A stretch of 28,300 bases of DNA from a virus: IMG/VR virus record IMGVR_UViG_3300032676_000829, positions 1 through 28,300 of that record; one strand, given 5' to 3'. Under the pieces are notes generated by a model, which ran no database searches, was not told the DNA's origin, and saw nothing but the letters and a program-made list of their open reading frames with translations. A program made the translations under genes and the position numbers. Numbering within the stretch: position 1 is the stretch's first letter; every line of letters starts with the position of its first letter. This document shows positions 2,161-15,647 of this stretch, in pieces.

Positions 2161-2168
2161 TATTTATC
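2161..2168 (-). promoter_or_regulatory. T4-type late promoter box GATAAATA
   Basis: GATAAATA on the minus strand at the very end of the upstream gene. It would give a leader of about 80 bases for the 43-residue gene, containing the terminator/anti-Shine-Dalgarno element. The rest of the leader (2114-2160) has no tRNA-like fold that I can see. Confidence 0.45.
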
Positions 2169-3333
2169 GTACTGAGGTATTTGTGGCAGATATTTTTTTG
2201 TTACGTTTAACTAGGTTGTCTTCGTGTTCAGCATCGTGTACAGCATTATCTGTATCTTTATAAGTTTGTGTGCCTAAATTTTGTTTTGTATTTTTGTGAC
2301 TTGTAACCTTTTTTGTATTTTTTGTTACAGATGATACAGGTTTTTGAGAAGTTTGTTGATTAGGAAGTTCAGATTGTTTTTGTTGTAATAAATCATCTAA
2401 TGGTTTCCAGCTACGGCCTTTATCTGCTTGAACTGATATTCGAGCACCGCTGATACCTTCGTTGGATCGGTCGCCTTTATACGATATATTAAAGACCGGG
2501 TCGTATTCCCCAGAAGGAGTAACACCGTTAAGCCATGTCATATCCGATCCGACAAGCACATTATTGCGTAAAGTAGGATGTCCTGCCATTACTGCATCAA
2601 CATTGCTAGGACCACGTGCTGGCTTACCAAATTCTTTACCAAATACTATTTGATTTTTTAATGTTTGATCTTCTATTCTTCTTCCAAAAGAGGATTTGTT
2701 TGGTATTTGATTGCCGAATGCTATTTTAGCATCGTTAATAAATTTTACTACTTCTGGATGTTGTCTTACAGGAGGATGTGTGATTCCTCCCCATCCTGCA
2801 ATAGCTCTAGGACCAGGAGCACTTTTTAAACTGATCCATGCTTGATGATTATTCTGTGAATCAACAATAATTGCATCAGCTTTAATTCCGCCTGGTGCTT
2901 TGATTGCGGCCGATGCCGGTACTTTTCTACCGCCCTTGCCTATTTGTATTTTTATATCGCTTGTACCTGCGGCCTGGCATGCTTTTTGTATTTGTTCATT
3001 GATATCAGCGACTTGACTCTTTTCATAAGATTCATTATCTTTGCCGCCGCCAAAACCATTGTCTTTTACAATACTAGTAAACAAGATATCTTTACCGTCT
3101 GTTGTTCGAATTGTTTTTGGTTTTATACCTTGTCGAAATAAATCAGAAACTCGGCCAGCCTCAGTCGGGTCCAGGTGTACTTGGGTTTGTTTACCACTTG
3201 CATCTAATACGGTAAATGCTTCACCGGCAACAAGACGTTTTATAAATTTTATCACACGATCGCGTGGGTCGTCTTTATATTTGAAAAGACCTGGGCTCAA
3301 AGGAGCTTCTGAAATAATATCAATTATACGCAT
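2164..3333 (-). CDS. Possible packaged nuclease-like protein with T4-type capsid-targeting N-terminus
   Basis: I start this at the ATG at 3331-3333 (MRIIDIISE) rather than at an upstream in-frame codon, because a CATAAATA box lies seven bases before it. The product has 389 residues. The N-terminus resembles T4 capsid-targeting peptides, which are cleaved by the gp21 protease after a Glu in a short hydrophobic-x-Glu context; here IISE is followed by APLSPG. Near the middle, KADAIIVD followed about nine residues later by WISLKS recalls a PD-(D/E)XK core with Ser in place of the second acidic residue. The last 80 residues are Lys/Thr/Gln-rich and disordered. Nuclease function and packaging are inferences. 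It could also be an unrelated virion protein. Confidence 0.55.
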   Translation of the reverse strand: MRIIDIISEAPLSPGLFKYKDDPRDRVIKFIKRLVAGEAFTVLDASGKQTQVHLDPTEAGRVSDLFRQGIKPKTIRTTDGKDILFTSIVKDNGFGGGKDNESYEKSQVADINEQIQKACQAAGTSDIKIQIGKGGRKVPASAAIKAPGGIKADAIIVDSQNNHQAWISLKSAPGPRAIAGWGGITHPPVRQHPEVVKFINDAKIAFGNQIPNKSSFGRRIEDQTLKNQIVFGKEFGKPARGPSNVDAVMAGHPTLRNNVLVGSDMTWLNGVTPSGEYDPVFNISYKGDRSNEGISGARISVQADKGRSWKPLDDLLQQKQSELPNQQTSQKPVSSVTKNTKKVTSHKNTKQNLGTQTYKDTDNAVHDAEHEDNLVKRNKKISATNTSVR

Positions 3334-3340
3334 AATGTAA

Positions 3341-3348
3341 TATTTATG
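3341..3348 (-). promoter_or_regulatory. T4-type late promoter box CATAAATA
   Basis: CATAAATA on the minus strand, seven bases before the ATG of the nuclease-like gene and directly after the stop of the bilin reductase. Its position suggests a nearly leaderless late transcript. Confidence 0.4.
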
Positions 3349-4039
3349 CGATATTAGGGAACAAACAATCCTGTATGAAAACACGTACATCCTCTTCGTC
3401 TAGCCCTAAACTAGCCATGACTTTGGGTGTATGTGGATTTTGCTTTTGATTATCGCAATAGTAGTTCTGATAACTGGTCGTGTCTAGCACACGGTTATTA
3501 GTTTCTCCCACTGTTTCTAAGTAATGATTTACAAGGATGTTGGCTAGACTGCTGATTTGTGCTAGTTCGCTATCATCACTAACATTACCTGCGGCTACCA
3601 TATGTTGGCTAAAAATACGTTTGGCCCAATCCGGTAATTCACGCTTTTTAAACCATTCGTAACGTGATACTTCTTCGCCAAAATAGTCTAGCATAGGATG
3701 GAATTTGTCTTCTGTAGGGCTGTAGTCAATGAAACAACCAGTCATCTTGTTTTTACCAGCAATTACATCAAAACCAAAAATAGGAGCAGGATTATGAGTG
3801 TGTGGAAAGATGCAACAATGCATCATCCAGAGCCCTCGTGAATCTCGTGCATCAACCACATCAATATGAGCACGGCGATAAAGAACAGAGCTCCATACAC
3901 GATTAATCCACCCAGGTTGGTTAAATCGATCCATTCCAGGCTCAAAGATTTCAGTGCCAGTCCGGCCAAATTCAGTCTCCAATAAGTGCTGAATATTTAT
4001 TAAAGTATCCCAAACTTTACTCGTCGGTATATTCGACAT
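3344..4039 (-). CDS. pcyX: Ferredoxin-dependent bilin reductase, PcyX-like
   Basis: A 231-residue member of the HY2/PcyA/PebS family, close to the length of phage PebS and PcyX. Landmarks are HIDVVDARDS (58-67), WMMHCCIFPH (71-80) and PIFGFDVI (86-93), whose D91 aligns with the catalytic Asp region of the family, then a C-terminal DTTSYQNYYC segment. Known oceanic-phage PcyX reduces biliverdin IXalpha to phycoerythrobilin using reduced ferredoxin. The gene overlaps heme oxygenase by 23 bases, so substrate supply and use are coupled. No ferredoxin, lyase or phycobiliprotein gene is in the window, so the electron donor must come from elsewhere and the role of the pigment is unknown. The PcyX subgroup is my inference; family membership is clear. 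Confidence 0.85.
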   Translation of the reverse strand: MSNIPTSKVWDTLINIQHLLETEFGRTGTEIFEPGMDRFNQPGWINRVWSSVLYRRAHIDVVDARDSRGLWMMHCCIFPHTHNPAPIFGFDVIAGKNKMTGCFIDYSPTEDKFHPMLDYFGEEVSRYEWFKKRELPDWAKRIFSQHMVAAGNVSDDSELAQISSLANILVNHYLETVGETNNRVLDTTSYQNYYCDNQKQNPHTPKVMASLGLDEEDVRVFIQDCLFPNIA

Positions 4040-4568
4040 GTGTCATCATTTCTTTAAAAAATTCTGTAGCGTATTCAAAACATATTTTTGCTTCATCTGC
4101 CATGCTGTCGTCGATTTTTGCACGAATAGCATCTTTTAGTTCTTCGGGTTTTTCAAACTTATAAAACTTACCGCTACCAGGAACTTTTTTAGCAATCATT
4201 TGTCCGCCTGCTAGGTCGCCCATATGACGTACATAGATATGTGCCATTAACTTTTTAGGATCATCTTTGATACTTAAGATATATTTGATATATTTTTGTG
4301 TAATAGGAAGAATTTCTACTTCACCATCTTCATCGGACCAAAGTTCTTGAAAATCACTAAGGATATTAGGAGCACGACGAACATCTGGTAAACCATTTAA
4401 TAGTCCTAATGGCATAGCACATACTTCTAAAATTTCATACATTGGATGCTGATTTTTTAGATAGGTAGCATAGAGTTTAGGATTGATTTTACCACTAAAA
4501 AGAATTTTTACAAATTCTTGACGTTCTGCGTTTGTATGTGCATCTTTGGTTAATTCACGTAGACTCAT
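4017..4568 (-). CDS. hemO: Heme oxygenase
   Basis: A 183-residue heme oxygenase, somewhat shorter than cyanobacterial HO1. The proximal heme ligand is probably H11 in LTKDAHTNAE, and the distal-helix signature YVRHMGDLAGGQ is at 112-123. It cleaves heme to biliverdin, CO and iron, giving the substrate for the bilin reductase immediately downstream. Its ATG overlaps the clpS stop by four bases (ATGA), so clpS, hemO and pcyX form one translational unit. Besides pigment synthesis, the released iron could feed the IscU/IscA and NrdB proteins encoded further along (inference). Confidence 0.9.
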   Translation of the reverse strand: MSLRELTKDAHTNAERQEFVKILFSGKINPKLYATYLKNQHPMYEILEVCAMPLGLLNGLPDVRRAPNILSDFQELWSDEDGEVEILPITQKYIKYILSIKDDPKKLMAHIYVRHMGDLAGGQMIAKKVPGSGKFYKFEKPEELKDAIRAKIDDSMADEAKICFEYATEFFKEMMTHVEYTDE

Positions 4569-4867
4569 TCTTCTTCCAATTTAATTTGTAGCTGGTGATT
4601 TGCAGTTCTGGCAATATTTGTAGCTTCGACTGCTTTTGCTTCAGCAATTTCAAAACTATATACTCCGGCAATACCACTACCAGTTTCGTGTACTTGTAGC
4701 ATGATGTCGTGAGCAGAGTTTTCAGTATGTTTGAAAACTTCCATTAACAAACTAATAACAAACTCCATCGGAGTGGTGTCATCATTCAATAAAATAACTT
4801 TCCAGCGTTTAGGCTCGGAGATAGTTACTTTAACTTTTTCGTCGATTACTACGTCTGTATTTGACAT
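4565..4867 (-). CDS. clpS: ClpS adaptor protein
   Basis: A 100-residue ClpS, the adaptor that delivers N-degron substrates to ClpAP. The ligand pocket is intact: N28-D29-D30 followed by TTPMEFV, and H60 in VHETG, with the same 32-residue spacing as Asn34 and His66 of E. coli ClpS. GSGIAGVY follows as in the family. An unstructured 20-residue N-terminus precedes the core. No ClpA or ClpP is in the window, so it must act on host protease. The Shine-Dalgarno AAAGAGAT is moderate, and a GC-rich hairpin lies just upstream. The placement directly ahead of heme oxygenase is unusual. Confidence 0.9.
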   Translation of the reverse strand: MSNTDVVIDEKVKVTISEPKRWKVILLNDDTTPMEFVISLLMEVFKHTENSAHDIMLQVHETGSGIAGVYSFEIAEAKAVEATNIARTANHQLQIKLEEE

Positions 4868-4887
4868 CTTATCTCTTTCTAGTAAGT

Positions 4888-4905
4888 GGGGGAGTTGCCT
4901 CCCCC
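4888..4905 (-). terminator. GC-rich hairpin with GCAA tetraloop between hsp20 and clpS
   Basis: On the minus strand GGGGGAG-GCAA-CTCCCCC forms a seven-base perfect stem capped by a GNRA tetraloop. No T-run follows on either strand, so it is more likely an mRNA processing or stabilising element than a classical terminator. Confidence 0.6.
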
Positions 4906-4911
4906 GGTTGA

Positions 4912-5331
4912 TTATTTAACTGTAATTAATCTTGGTTTCAAAGATTCTGGAACAATACGTTCGATACTAATGATCAACATACCATCCTTGACTTCTGCAT
5001 CTTTTACTTCCATGTATTCAGCAAGTGTATAACTTTGCTCAAAATCACGACTAGCAAGACCACGATGCAAATACTCTTTGGTAGAGTCTTCTTTAGTTGT
5101 CTGTACTCCACGTACAACCAACTGATCCTGATCTACTTCTACTGTGATTTCATCTTTGCTGAAACCTGCTACTGCTACTTCAATAGCATATTCACTATCA
5201 CTATACTTCACAATATTGTGTGGAGGATAGTTTCCTTGTTGTTGTAGTTGTTGATTGAAAATTGTATCAAATCCTACAAGTGCTCTACTTAGATGTGCCA
5301 AGTGAGCTGGGTCTATTGCTCTTAATTGCAT
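4912..5331 (-). CDS. hsp20: Small heat-shock protein Hsp20 / IbpA-like
   Basis: I place the start at the ATG at 5329-5331 (MQLRAIDPAHL), seven bases after a strong AAGGAG, giving 139 residues. The alpha-crystallin domain covers roughly residues 35-125 (YAIEVAVAGFSKDEITVEV, LVVRGVQ, EYLHRGLASRDFEQSYTLAE). A C-terminal KPRLI tail supplies the I-x-I-like anchor. The N-terminal FDTIFNQQLQQQ segment is like IbpA. It is an ATP-independent holdase. Hsp20 is common in marine T4-like phages. Here it lies directly downstream of dnaK, to which it would hand clients. It has its own sigma70-like promoter and a leader resembling that of dnaK. Confidence 0.92.
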   Translation of the reverse strand: MQLRAIDPAHLAHLSRALVGFDTIFNQQLQQQGNYPPHNIVKYSDSEYAIEVAVAGFSKDEITVEVDQDQLVVRGVQTTKEDSTKEYLHRGLASRDFEQSYTLAEYMEVKDAEVKDGMLIISIERIVPESLKPRLITVK

Positions 5332-5338
5332 TTTATAT

Positions 5339-5359
5339 CTCCTTATGTTAAGCAAGAAA
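5339..5359 (-). promoter_or_regulatory. Putative RNA thermometer in hsp20 leader
   Basis: On the minus strand TTTCTT (5359-5354) can pair over six bases with AAGGAG (5344-5339), the Shine-Dalgarno, including two G-U pairs, across a nine-base loop GCTTAACAT. The block TTTCTTGCTTAA followed by AAGGAGAT recurs in the dnaK leader. This is read by eye; stability and temperature response are not computed. Confidence 0.5.
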
Positions 5360-5361
5360 GT

Positions 5362-5386
5362 TGCGGAGCCCATTAGGCACTCCGCA
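5362..5386 (-). promoter_or_regulatory. Leader hairpin upstream of hsp20
   Basis: A perfect seven-base stem TGCGGAG/CTCCGCA with an 11-base loop, inside the hsp20 leader downstream of the proposed promoter. There is no T-run behind it. A weaker hairpin holds the same place in the dnaK leader. Confidence 0.55.
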
Positions 5387-5391
5387 TTTTT

Positions 5392-5420
5392 ATTTTATTA
5401 CTCTTTCGAGTCTTTGTCAA
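5392..5420 (-). promoter_or_regulatory. Sigma70-like promoter for hsp20
   Basis: TTGACA (5420-5415), a 17-base spacer, then TAAAAT (5397-5392): a full -35 match and five of six at -10. It overlaps the 3' end of dnaK and would allow hsp20 to be transcribed by host polymerase separately from dnaK. Confidence 0.55.
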
Positions 5421-7302
5421 CTTCTGTGAATGCCGCATCAACAGTTTGTTCAGCTGGTTGAGCTGGTGTTTCAGCCGTTGTAGATTCAGCGGCCTGTTTC
5501 TTGGCCATTACTACTCCAGCGGCATCAAAGAAGCTTTGTACTGACTTATCAATGGCTTCCTTATCTTCTCCGGCGCAAGCTGTTTCAACAGCCTTGACTG
5601 CGTCTTCGAATTTAGTACGCTCATCTTCAGTCAATTGATCTTTGTACGTTTCATAATCTTTCTTGACACTATGAGTAGTGCCTTCTGCATTATTACGTGC
5701 ATTGATCAATTCTGCCTGCTTCTTATCATCTTCAGCATTGGCTTCGGCTTCTTTGATCATACGCTCAATGTCATCTTTGCTCAATCCTGAATCAGATTTG
5801 ATAGTAATCTTGTTTTCTTTGCCAGTCTTTTTATCTTTGGCACTTACATTCAAGATACCGTTAGCATCTATATCTAGGGTAACTTCAACTTGTGGCATAC
5901 CGCGTGGAGCAGGATCAATACCTTCCAAATTAAATTCACCCAAATGTTTGTTATACTTGTACAACTCACGCTCACCTTGTGCAACTTTAATAGTTACAGC
6001 TGGTTGATTGTCTTCTGCTGTTGAGAATGTTTGTGAGTGCTTGGTTGGGATAGTTGTGTTCTTAGCGATCAACTTGGTAAACACACCGCCCATTGTTTCG
6101 ATACCCAATGTTAATGGAGTTACGTCCAATAACAATACGTCTGTCTTATCGCCTGCTAGAACAGCGCCTTGTACTGCGGCACCTGCGGCTACAGCTTCGT
6201 CTGGGTTAACGTCTTTACGTGGGGCCTTACCAAACAGTTTCTCAACTGCTTCTTGTACTTTAGGCATACGTGTTTGGCCACCAACTAGGATAACTTCGTC
6301 GATGTCTGCGGCTGTTACCTTAGCATCAGTCATACAGGTTTTGCATGGCTCAATTGAACGTTGAATCAATCCTTCAACCATTGCTTCAAACTTGGCACGG
6401 CTGATTGTAACGTTCATGTGCTTAGGACCTGTTGCATCTGCTGTAACGTATGGCAAGTTAACTGAAGTTGATTGTGCTGACGACAATTCAATTTTGGCTT
6501 TTTCTGCGGCTTCTTTCAAACGTTGCAATGCTAGTACATCTGACTTAAGATCGATACCTGAATCTTTCTTAAACTCATCAACTAGATAGTCCATTATAAC
6601 TTGGTCAAAGTCTTCACCGCCTAGGAATGTATCACCGTTAGTTGCAAGAACTTCAATTTGCTTGTCGCCATCGATGTTGGCAATTTCAATAATTGAAATA
6701 TCAAATGTACCACCACCCAAGTCATATACAGCAATCTTGCGATCCTTCTTGTCTGTCTTATCAACACCATAGGCTAAGGCAGCCGCTGTTGGCTCGTTGA
6801 TAATACGTAGAACTTCTAGACCTGCAATTTGTCCTGCATCTTTGGTTGCTTGACGTTGACTATCGTTAAAGTAAGCTGGTACAGTAATAACTGCTTGTGT
6901 TACTTCATGTCCTAGATAGTCTTCAGCAGTCTTTTTCATTTTGCGTAGTACTTCAGCTGACACCTGCGGTGGAGCCAATTTTTGATCATTAACTTGAATC
7001 CATGCATCGCCATTATCAGCTTTGATAATAGTATATGGCATCAAGTCGATGTCTTTTTGTACTGCTTGTTCTTCAAACTTACGTCCGATTAGACGCTTGC
7101 TTGCGTAAATTGTATTCTTTGGATTTGTGACTGCTTGTCGTTTTGCTGTTGCACCTACTAGAATTTCTTTATCTGTATATGCAATGATTGATGGTGTTGT
7201 TCTAGCACCTTCGCTGTTTTCAATTACTTTAGCAACTCCGTTTTCTAGAATCGCCACACAGCTATTTGTTGTACCTAAATCGATACCGATGATTTTGCTC
7301 AT
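5398..7302 (-). CDS. dnaK: Molecular chaperone DnaK (Hsp70), full length
   Basis: A 634-residue Hsp70 of normal bacterial length. The ATPase domain has [10 protein letters not shown] at the start, [21 protein letters not shown] and VGGQTRMP. The linker [15 protein letters not shown] is intact, followed by the substrate-binding domain and a helical lid ending in a Gln/Ala/Thr-rich tail. The extreme C-terminus ([10 protein letters not shown]) differs from the usual EEVKD-type end. No DnaJ or GrpE is in the window, so host co-chaperones would be needed. A complete dnaK is rare in phages; acquisition from a bacterial host is the simplest origin. The leader carries promoter elements, a hairpin and a possible Shine-Dalgarno-masking stem shared with hsp20. 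Confidence 0.97.
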
Positions 7303-7308
7303 AATAAT

Positions 7309-7330
7309 CTCCTTTTAATTAAGCAAGAAA
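7309..7330 (-). promoter_or_regulatory. Putative RNA thermometer in dnaK leader
   Basis: TTTCTT (7330-7325) can pair with AAGGAG (7314-7309) across a ten-base loop, hiding the Shine-Dalgarno eight bases before the ATG. TTTCTTGCTTAA followed by AAGGAGAT is shared with the hsp20 leader, while the loop differs, which is what a conserved anti-Shine-Dalgarno element would look like. Confidence 0.5.
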
Positions 7331-7356
7331 AATGTAAAACCCTTACGGCGTTCTAC
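7328..7356 (-). terminator. Hairpin with short T-run between mazG and dnaK
   Basis: GTAGAAC (7356-7350) pairs with GTTTTAC (7340-7334), seven bases with one G-U, around a nine-base loop, and is followed by ATTTTT. It may end transcripts from mazG or act as a dnaK leader element. The proposed dnaK -10 box overlaps its 5' arm. Confidence 0.4.
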
Positions 7357-7378
7357 AAATTTATTTATCTCTCGTCAA
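7350..7378 (-). promoter_or_regulatory. Sigma70-like promoter for dnaK
   Basis: TTGACG (7378-7373), a 17-base spacer, then TAGAAC (7355-7350): five of six and four of six matches. It lies at the end of mazG and would give a leader of about 40 bases. Confidence 0.35.
7362..7369 (-). promoter_or_regulatory. T4-type late promoter box GATAAATA before dnaK
   Basis: GATAAATA on the minus strand overlaps the mazG stop and sits 59 bases before the dnaK ATG. Together with the overlapping sigma70-like elements it suggests both early and late expression, though either could be chance. Confidence 0.4.
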
Positions 7379-8269: not shown

Positions 8270-8298
8270 ATTGTAACAGATATTAGTTAATTTGTCAA
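8270..8298 (-). promoter_or_regulatory. Sigma70-like promoter for exonuclease-mazG
   Basis: TTGACA (8298-8293), a 17-base spacer, then TACAAT (8275-8270): a perfect -35 and five of six at -10. It lies in the 53-base gap between rpsU and the exonuclease gene, with a predicted start about 20 bases before the ATG. Confidence 0.7.
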
Positions 8299-8528
8299 TA
8301 TAATTTTGGTGGAAGTTGTTGGTCGCGTAGTTTCTTCTTCCAACGTGCTTTTGCCGCACCCTTGGCACGTTTTCGAGCAGTTGTTGGTTTTTCGTAAAAT
8401 TCTTTTTCACGTAGGATATCTAAAAGTTTACTATCATCAATCTTACGCTTAAATCGGCGAAGAGCTTGATTTATATTCTCGCCTTCTTTTACGGTAACTC
8501 CAGTACCTTTATTCTTCTTGTGCATCAT
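8295..8528 (-). CDS. rpsU: Ribosomal protein bS21
   Basis: A 77-residue bS21. The core is typical: VTVKEGENINQALRRFKRKI, then a basic tail (KPTTARKRAKGAAKARWKKK). bS21 sits near the anti-Shine-Dalgarno on the 30S subunit and helps initiation. It is exchangeable, so a phage version could replace the host one and favour viral mRNAs. Phage bS21 genes are known from marine phages including pelagiphages. There are two adjacent ATG codons (8526-8528 and 8523-8525); either may be used. The start overlaps the upstream gene by 20 bases. Confidence 0.93.
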   Translation of the reverse strand: MMHKKNKGTGVTVKEGENINQALRRFKRKIDDSKLLDILREKEFYEKPTTARKRAKGAAKARWKKKLRDQQLPPKLY

Positions 8529-12657: not shown

Positions 12658-12686
12658 ATTATACTGTCAATTTTGGTAAATGTCAA
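12658..12686 (-). promoter_or_regulatory. Consensus sigma70 promoter
   Basis: TTGACA (12686-12681), exactly 17 bases, then TATAAT (12663-12658), a perfect match to the bacterial consensus. A second overlapping pair (TTGACA 12670-12665, 18 bases, TATAAC 12646-12641) follows. It overlaps the iscA stop and drives the LEGPW gene and probably the wall hydrolase, with host polymerase. Confidence 0.85.
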
Positions 12687-13009
12687 ACACGAAAACTTTC
12701 ACCGCAACCGCAACGGTCACGCTCATTTGGATTGACAAAATCAAATCCTTCATTGAGTCCATTGCGGACCCAATCCATTGTAAGCCCATTCAAGTACGGA
12801 TCATCTTTTAGACTTACCAGTACACAAAAGTCATTTTGGGCATAATTTATAACACCTTCTTCGCCGTCATACTTATCCACATATTCTAGCACGTAGGCCA
12901 GGCCCGAGCAACCGGTAGTTCTTACGCCTATGCGAATGCCAACGCCTTTACCGCGTTTGGCAAGATTTTGTTTAATTTTAGCCTTGGCTGTGTCTGTTAC
13001 GATAATCAT
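12683..13009 (-). CDS. iscA: Iron-sulfur carrier IscA / ErpA type
   Basis: A 108-residue A-type carrier of full length. The three conserved cysteines are present: C34 in TTGCSGLAYV and C100/C102 in the terminal CGCGESF. The middle LVSLKDDPYLNGLTMDWV and FDFVNPNE match the family. A-type carriers receive Fe-S clusters from IscU and pass them to client proteins. The gene overlaps iscU by 32 bases. No IscS, HscA, HscB or ferredoxin follows, so host desulfurase would supply sulfur, although the phage DnaK could in principle stand in for HscA (speculation). Confidence 0.95.
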   Translation of the reverse strand: MIIVTDTAKAKIKQNLAKRGKGVGIRIGVRTTGCSGLAYVLEYVDKYDGEEGVINYAQNDFCVLVSLKDDPYLNGLTMDWVRNGLNEGFDFVNPNERDRCGCGESFRV

Positions 13010-13364
13010 TAATAGCCGCTTTGATAGCGTCCTCTGCTAGAATTGAACAATGTATCTTTACTGGGGGTAATGCTAGTTCTTCGGCAATTTGGGAATTTTT
13101 AAGGTTAACAGCATCATCAATATGCATACCCTTAACCCACTCTGTAACCAACGACGAACTGGCGATTGCTGAACCGCATCCATATGTCTTGAAACGAGCA
13201 TCTCTAATAATACCATCTTCATCTACCTTTATTTGTAATTTCATGACATCACCACAGGCCGGTGCTCCAACCATGCCTGTACCAACAGTAGGATCATTCT
13301 TATCAAACGATCCTACATTGCGTGGATTTTCATAATGATCAATAACTTTGTCCGAATATGCCAT
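12978..13364 (-). CDS. iscU: Iron-sulfur scaffold IscU
   Basis: A 128-residue IscU with every functional residue: C37 (GAPACGD) with D39, C63 (YGCGSAIASSS), the chaperone-binding LPPVK at 99-103 and C106 (IHCSILAEDAI). The N-terminus YSDKVIDHYENPRNVGSF is canonical. It assembles 2Fe-2S clusters with a desulfurase. Its ribosome site AAGGAAAG overlaps the end of the PP-loop gene. A complete IscU-IscA pair in a phage suggests a need for Fe-S maturation during infection. The LPPVK motif means it could still be handled by an Hsp70-type chaperone. Confidence 0.96.
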   Translation of the reverse strand: MAYSDKVIDHYENPRNVGSFDKNDPTVGTGMVGAPACGDVMKLQIKVDEDGIIRDARFKTYGCGSAIASSSLVTEWVKGMHIDDAVNLKNSQIAEELALPPVKIHCSILAEDAIKAAINDYRNRHSQG

Positions 13365-14425: not shown

Positions 14426-15370
14426 TTATTGTGTTTTAATTTGATCTACTAATCCAGAAGTAAAATAGTCAGCAAACTTTGTATAAACAATTTGTGTAGC
14501 ATCTGCGAAACGTTGTTGTTCTTCAGACGACATACGAATAACTTCGATACCATCTGCTTCGGCACGGAGTTGTGTTTGAATTACATCATCGATACTGATA
14601 GTACGTTCGTAACGTGCGGCAACTTGTGCTGATTCACTTACGATTGTTTGTAATTCTGGGGTTAGTGTATTCCAGAAGTCAGTACCAACTAGAATGCTTG
14701 TTAGAAACAAACTGTGTTCTGTATGATTAATATAGTTGCTTACTTTAGCTTGATTCAATGCATAGATACGTGGATAAGTACTTTCCCCGATGGTAACGTT
14801 AGCCTTACCTAAATTTTCAGTAAGTTCTTCCAATTCCATTGGAACTACATCAGCACCTAATGTCTTGAATGTTTCGATAGCAACTGGACTGAAACTTGTA
14901 CGTAGCTTAACACCACGTAAGTCTTCAATTCGACTAACTGCTTCGTTTCCTGGGATAATACGGAAACCACCTGAATATGTAAATGCTAGACCTTTAATCT
15001 TTTTAGATTCTTGCAAACTGTCTAACAACTGTTTACCAACTGCACCTTCGAACACACGACTAGCATGGTCGTGGTCTTTAAATAAGAATGGCAAATCTAA
15101 TGCAAAGAAATCTTTGTTGATTTTACCTAGTGTAATTGTGTATGTCTGACTCATTTCGATAGCACCGCTATCTAATAAATCTACTAGACTATGTTTATCA
15201 ACTACTACACCGTTATTATATTTCTCTGAGTATTCGCTCATAGTCATAACTTCGATGTCTAGTTGCTCAGGAGCACGAGCATTTACTTCTGCGGCAAATA
15301 CTTTAGCGGCACGAAGAAACAATTCAATTGGTTCATGTGCTAATACCCATTTTACGTGCTTTTTATTCAT
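14426..15370 (-). CDS. dctP-like: TRAP-transporter solute-binding protein, DctP family, without signal peptide
   Basis: I start at ATG 15368-15370 (MNKKHVKWVLAHEP), since the codons above it overlap the previous gene. The 314 residues cover the whole DctP fold: YSEKYNNG, FALDLPFLFKDHDHASRVF, the ligand-gating Arg region SRIEDLRGVKLRT, VPMELEEL, and VGTDFWNTLTPELQ. DctP proteins normally carry an N-terminal signal peptide and work in the periplasm. Here the first beta-strand begins at about residue 6 and no hydrophobic leader exists, so the protein should stay in the cytoplasm or the virion. Its role is unknown: a ligand sink, sensor, or structural reuse. No TRAP membrane subunits are in the window. 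Confidence 0.88.
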   Translation of the reverse strand: MNKKHVKWVLAHEPIELFLRAAKVFAAEVNARAPEQLDIEVMTMSEYSEKYNNGVVVDKHSLVDLLDSGAIEMSQTYTITLGKINKDFFALDLPFLFKDHDHASRVFEGAVGKQLLDSLQESKKIKGLAFTYSGGFRIIPGNEAVSRIEDLRGVKLRTSFSPVAIETFKTLGADVVPMELEELTENLGKANVTIGESTYPRIYALNQAKVSNYINHTEHSLFLTSILVGTDFWNTLTPELQTIVSESAQVAARYERTISIDDVIQTQLRAEADGIEVIRMSSEEQQRFADATQIVYTKFADYFTSGLVDQIKTQ

Positions 15371-15647
15371 ATTTAAAACTCCAAGTTTCCGATTGTGTTC
15401 TAGCGTCAACTACACGCTTTATTACATGTGCTTTTTTAGCTATGAGTTCTCTAATAACTTCTTCGCTAGGTAGCTTATCATTATTTATCAACTTAGAAAC
15501 TGGTATTAGCAAACTTCTATGCCCGTATTCTTTTACATTTGAATTATAAAAGAAATAGTCTTTTATTGAAAATAAGTTGTTCAACGGGCCTTTAACTGGA
15601 AATTCGTTTATTTCAAGTATGTATTCATTGAGAAAGGCTTGGGTCAT
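15363..15647 (-). CDS. Uncharacterised small protein
   Basis: A 94-residue protein overlapping the DctP-like start by eight bases and the preceding membrane-protein gene by 23. The sequence contains IKDYFFYNSNVKEYGHRSLLIPVSKLI and then a basic helix (EEVIRELIAKKAHVIKRVVDAR). I recognise no family. Translational overlap on both sides is the main support. Confidence 0.65.
   Translation of the reverse strand: MTQAFLNEYILEINEFPVKGPLNNLFSIKDYFFYNSNVKEYGHRSLLIPVSKLINNDKLPSEEVIRELIAKKAHVIKRVVDARTQSETWSFKYE

Follow-up and report, generated by a model that had tools for sequence, protein, structure and literature searches.

The 28.3-kb stretch of DNA analysed here (the window), which is the whole of IMG/VR record IMGVR_UViG_3300032676_000829 and a fragment of a lake-water virus genome, carries on its minus strand a series of dnaK, hsp20, clpS, heme oxygenase (HO) and bilin reductase genes. 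By sequence, the reductase is a ferredoxin-dependent bilin reductase (FDBR) of the PcyX type, and the arrangement is common to many related phages in which photosynthesis genes were not found, so that the likely purpose of the pathway is to handle heme, iron or stress and not to harvest light. With relatives encoded in 401 IMG/VR stretches from more than one lineage and a conserved operon context, PcyX appears to be a widespread feature rather than a marine curiosity. The original prediction had placed it in uncultured oceanic phages, a restriction that does not hold in view of these stretches, of the cultured pelagiphage Mosig and of published HO-FDBR cassettes from freshwater phages (PMC11480375).

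The clpS-heme oxygenase-pcyX unit

The three ORFs at 3344-4867 that had been read as one unit are intact and lie on the minus strand as described: pcyX (3344..4039, 231 aa), the HO gene (4017..4568, 183 aa) and clpS (4565..4867, 100 aa), the last encoding a predicted ClpA/N-degron adaptor. Their products match Fe_bilin_red (PF05996, E = 1.5e-14), Heme_oxygenase (PF01126, E = 7.4e-23) and ClpS (E = 8.5e-29), all above the curated Pfam cut-offs; HO and pcyX overlap by 23 nt, bearing out the predicted overlap, and clpS and HO by 4 nt (ATGA). Close pairs among related loci yield dN/dS values of ~0.02-0.2 for clpS, HO and pcyX, well below 1, and the three genes are under purifying selection. The unrelated ORF downstream of pcyX (2164..3333, minus strand), for which an internal ATG at 3333 is a likelier start than the called one at 3390, overlapping pcyX, is not conserved behind pcyX in related loci.

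Family and fold, tree placement and active-site residues concur in assigning the reductase to PcyX. Its best match among solved structures is 5OWG (PcyX_EBK42635; E = 6.3e-67), with PcyA at 3e-15, and 5OWG is also the top Foldseek match of its AlphaFold model (pLDDT 91.7), at 1.0 Å rmsd over the aligned core. By alignment, the predicted active-site residues Asp60, His74 and Asp91 correspond to Asp55, His69 and Asp86 of PcyX and to Glu76, His88 and Asp105 of PcyA. Asp55 is specific to PcyX (PMC11480375). The PcyX aspartate and its longer spacing are shared by 81 of 81 window-like and 79 of 80 Mosig-like proteins; in proteins of the PcyA type the residue is Glu. Tree placement, the check proposed for the original prediction, puts the window reductase inside a viral PcyX clade (support 100/99) that is distinct, in a tree with some long branches, from PebA, PebB and PebS and from the PcyA proteins of cyanobacteria, cyanophages and alphaproteobacteria. 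The protein thus departs from PcyA both in carrying Asp where PcyA has Glu76 and in its separate clade, and it does not group with PebA or PebS; its predicted product is most likely phycoerythrobilin (PEB). In a few natural PcyX proteins the catalytic Asp is replaced, by Asn at L507 and L524, by Ser at L528 and by Glu at L519; the first three of these loci retain the hsp20-clpS-HO context. A cyanophage-type pcyA, which aligns closely with the P-TIM40 gene, was also seen on a contig of Nonlabens xiamenensis (L180, a Bacteroidota assembly), possibly as a contamination.

The neighbouring HO is classed as HO-1 type by its family match, a conserved His11 that is the likely proximal histidine, and a conserved GDLAGGQ distal helix (GDLxGGQ pattern). 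Across the same freshwater loci (the window and the A2 loci), HO identity is 38-62% and that of the adjacent PcyX 74-80%, and this much faster divergence of HO suggests either HO replacement or the existence of two HO types. At L058, L060 and L063 (8711-9997), an ORF judged by eye to resemble S-adenosylhomocysteine hydrolase lies between HO and PcyX.

ClpS shows the expected domain match and conserves the N-degron pocket residues N28, D29, D30, T32, M34 and H60; the cut-offs of the curated NCBIfam equivalogs are not reached. The clpS, HO and reductase genes occur together in 78 of the 83 loci examined, so their association is no accident. The proposed translational coupling with clpS, which the original prediction had singled out as an oddity, has its counterpart in the ATGA overlap, which is retained in 55 of 77 loci (16 have an extra ORF of ~86 aa between clpS and HO). 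The link with clpS is no one-off: where a clpS-seeded locus extends 1.5 kb or more downstream, HO and PcyX accompany clpS in every case (70 of 70). Among the broader PcyX loci with 2 kb upstream, HO adjoins PcyX in 66 of 67; clpS is present in ~30 of these, nearly always together with its hsp20 neighbour, and in 36 the HO-PcyX pair stands without either gene. None of the 56 Mosig-type loci with 1.5 kb upstream has clpS. The same gene island is present on L129-L131, which are therefore read as misbinned phage contigs, their MAG labels (Halobacteroidaceae, Neomarinimicrobiota and Rickettsiales) being rejected. A literature search for phage clpS together with heme oxygenase returned no relevant paper.

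Heat-shock genes and their leaders

Upstream of clpS lie hsp20 (IbpA-like; 4912..5331, minus strand), preceded by a sigma70-like TTGACA-17-TAAAAT sequence (5392..5420, minus strand) that is a candidate operon promoter, and dnaK (HSP70, 634 aa; 5398..7302, minus strand). The ORF caller starts hsp20 at 5373; a conserved leader and Shine-Dalgarno (SD) sequence favour the ATG at 5331-5329. A hairpin with a GNRA-type loop (GGGGGAG-GCAA-CTCCCCC; 4887..4906, minus strand), lacking a T tail on the sense strand, separates hsp20 from clpS, and a GNRA-type hairpin is conserved at this position in most freshwater loci. The cultured jumbo phages PA5oct, Phosso and Atu_ph07 have hsp20-clpS without HO or an FDBR, and the simplest reading is therefore that the HO-PcyX cassette probably joined an older hsp20-clpS proteostasis pair. 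The gene right after clpS encodes an Fe/Mn superoxide dismutase in PA5oct and a VWA protein in Atu_ph07 and is of unknown kind in Phosso; all three were tested as remote HO and are not HO. In Phosso and Atu_ph07 a thymidine kinase gene intervenes between hsp20 and clpS, and Erwinia phage SNUABM_47 carries clpS in a different setting. Matches of ClpS and FdxA to "Acinetobacter phage MD-2021a" were set aside, its clpS contig having bacterial chromosomal neighbours. A ribosomal protein bS21 homologue is encoded at 8295-8528 (minus strand) of the window, and S21 is also found near hsp20-clpS of PA5oct.

The leaders of hsp20 (5329..5400, minus strand) and dnaK (7300..7370, minus strand) share one element, a hairpin followed by UUCUUGCUUA and an SD sequence (AAGGAG before hsp20). 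Compensatory changes affect all 10 pairs of the hairpin and 93% of cells are paired; none of 500 shuffles scored as high, and slid versions of the hairpin scored far lower. Over 1.24 Mb, matches of the covariance model with E below 0.01 fall before hsp20 or dnaK genes, and they include dnaK leaders (E = 2.2e-11 in the window) and the Atu_ph07 hsp20 leader, none of which was used in building the model; the Phosso hsp20 leader reaches E = 0.055. A stable, covarying hairpin I of the ROSE-like kind is present before a small heat-shock gene, and the U(U/C)GCU motif is found as UUGCU in the alignment; it could pair with the SD, although this pairing is short and weak in silico (-2 to -3 kcal/mol). 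The leader matches no Rfam family, and its layout resembles that of the short two-hairpin ROSE-like thermometers that precede ibpA in Pseudomonas (PMC3669281). We regard it as a candidate ROSE-like RNA thermometer. Thermometers of this class are known from heat-shock genes of bacteria, and the leader, which may represent the class in phages, may as a passing result matter more than the bilin cassette itself. Outside the window the element was located at L208 (7349-7417), L212 (2633-2708) and L209 (6745-6817); among cultured jumbo phages it was seen in PA5oct and Atu_ph07 and, with a weaker match, in Phosso.

Phage lineage and role of the pathway

The window IscU (12978..13364, minus strand), which neighbours an IscA-like Fe-S assembly protein (12683..13009, minus strand), is 71-84% identical to sampled Pseudomonadota homologues and at most 55% identical to those of cyanobacteria, with one exception at 69%, an affinity that points to a Pseudomonadota host at phylum-level resolution. 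In the lineage, TerL is nearest to that of jumbo phages of Pseudomonas, Sinorhizobium, Xanthomonas and Erwinia, and in a 356-kb relative (G002) it is 53% identical to TerL of PA5oct. We place the window in a lineage of jumbo myoviruses whose hosts are probably Pseudomonadota; other PcyX contigs belong to other phage lineages. The window also encodes a DctP-type TRAP transporter solute-binding protein (14426-15409, minus strand).

Because the window is a fragment, the predicted lack of photosynthesis genes was assessed on 30 related records, two of them of ~360 kb. Profile searches found Photo_RC and PHY in none of the 30, and there was no credible phycobilisome or BBAG match among them, the lone Phycobilisome match (G005, E = 3e-5, below the cut-off) being rejected for lying inside a tail fibre ORF; the description of a phage without photosynthesis genes therefore stands for this group. 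Of the two partners for which linked contigs were to be surveyed, a bilin-binding protein gave no convincing match in these records, but a ferredoxin was found: a 7Fe protein of the FdxA type is encoded in G001 (188748-189071), G002 (181771-182094), G038 and G044. Phage-encoded ferredoxins of this type occur in 273 IMG/VR stretches. The link between FdxA and PcyX is loose, since FdxA was not found in five of the nine PcyX contigs above 200 kb (G039, G040, G055, G056 and G057, some possibly incomplete) and the 335-kb G043 has fdxA and no FDBR. A plant-type ferredoxin (PF00111) was found in Mosig only. Such potential sources of electrons, the wide occurrence and conserved operon context of PcyX, and the availability of Mosig in culture on Pelagibacter make the role of bilins in non-photosynthetic virocells testable.

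We consider it likely, though well short of certain, that the window encodes a heme-catabolic branch at the end of a stress operon in a jumbo myovirus, and that the benefit is heme turnover, yielding iron and a bilin, and not light harvesting. The operon would be cotranscribed from the candidate promoter through the ROSE-like leader, hsp20 and clpS to HO and pcyX as the last cistrons, with dnaK just upstream under its own leader. HO would open host heme to biliverdin IX-alpha, Fe2+ and CO, and the reductase would then use four ferredoxin electrons to make, most likely, the pink bile pigment phycoerythrobilin from biliverdin, by way of 15,16-DHBV as expected of a PcyX; the released iron could serve phage di-iron and Fe-S proteins, and biliverdin would be drained into a reduced bilin. 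The window also encodes a class I RNR alongside IscU and IscA. Iron release alone does not account for so strongly constrained a PcyX, which counts against a purely iron-centred form of this proposal; the constraint suggests that the phage also gains from having the reduced bilin or from being rid of biliverdin.

Among possible benefits, antioxidant protection ranks next after heme turnover with iron release, followed by a bilin ligand and then by light harvesting. A module in which HO-PcyX, as a part of the proteostasis island, shields infected cells against reactive oxygen and free heme, with iron as a by-product, is a tentative possibility suggested by the position of HO-pcyX behind dnaK and hsp20-clpS, by the ROSE-like leaders of both heat-shock genes and by the superoxide dismutase gene that takes the place after clpS in PA5oct; yet where a gene lies in a single relative says little about function, and the broader and Mosig-type loci without clpS indicate that a stress context is not required. 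Constraint on the catalytic residues of PcyX would suit a reduced bilin that serves a photoreceptor or a bilin-binding globin of the host as its chromophore, through which the phage would alter light or redox signalling. BBAG partners have been proposed, and PcyA of the freshwater phage CB_2 can supply a functional phytochrome chromophore (PMC11480375, PMC10151467), but a search of the 30 related records that covered PHY and phycobilisome or BBAG domains found no PHY and no credible match to the others, which leaves this second alternative more doubtful.

For cyanophages with PebS or PcyA, a role in light harvesting has been proposed, and the same role in cyanobacteria or algae as hosts could be entertained here given that PEB is a phycobilisome pigment and that related FDBRs occur in cyanophages; it is highly improbable, however, for a reductase that stands apart from cyanophage PcyA and PebS, in a window that encodes an Isc-type IscU of Pseudomonadota affinity, and in a group whose 30 searched records showed no photosystem genes and whose cultured relative Mosig infects Pelagibacter. 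The regular company of clpS, HO and PcyX and the retained ATGA overlap might be taken to tie ClpS to heme itself, with ClpS/ClpAP removing heme-pathway proteins or hemoproteins and thereby feeding or tuning HO, and there are plant papers that treat ClpS with GluTR/HemA. Neither partner needs the other, though: PA5oct, Phosso and Atu_ph07 have hsp20-clpS without HO, and the Mosig-type and other loci have HO-PcyX without clpS, so that such a tie seems quite unlikely. Somewhat less so, if still unlikely, is an operon led by a thermosensor in which chaperone, ClpS, HO and PEB synthase act together in jumbo phages of non-phototrophs. ClpS/ClpAP would there degrade damaged or targeted hemoproteins during infection and HO would open their heme; the iron would pass to phage RNR and Fe-S proteins (through the phage's own IscU and IscA, and FdxA in some), and PcyX would drain biliverdin into a redox-active bilin.

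Comparison with known systems

The cultured jumbo phages PA5oct, Phosso and Atu_ph07 resemble the window in having hsp20 upstream of clpS, are related in TerL (53% identity for PA5oct, ~50% for Phosso), and differ from the window in having no HO or FDBR. The vhemO-vpcyA/X pair of CB_2 is, like the window cassette, an HO with an FDBR in a freshwater phage, but the CB_2 enzyme lacks the Asp55 that the window protein has, is a true PcyA and makes PCB, not PEB (PMC11480375), a product that counts against assuming PEB for the window cassette. L465 and L510 resemble the CB_2 type, as judged by their Glu and by a branch outside PcyX. Pelagibacter phage Mosig EXVC030M shares the HO-PcyX pair with the window (48% identity for HO, 47% for PcyX), and it too encodes hsp20, though elsewhere in the genome, as well as a [2Fe-2S] ferredoxin; unlike the window, it is a 141-kb Kyanoviridae record with no clpS detected by homology, in which 2OG-Fe oxygenase genes precede HO and a putative ferrochelatase is encoded. 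A marine hemO-pcyX phage cassette has been published (PMC11480375), and marine PcyX_EBK42635 (5OWG) has the same fold, the same Asp55, His and Asp residues and the same tree clade as the window reductase. The window PcyX belongs to a freshwater subgroup that has ~46-48% identity with marine PcyX; its phage lineage is another one, and clpS and hsp20 lie upstream. The window unit is a new context for an already known phage HO-PcyX cassette.
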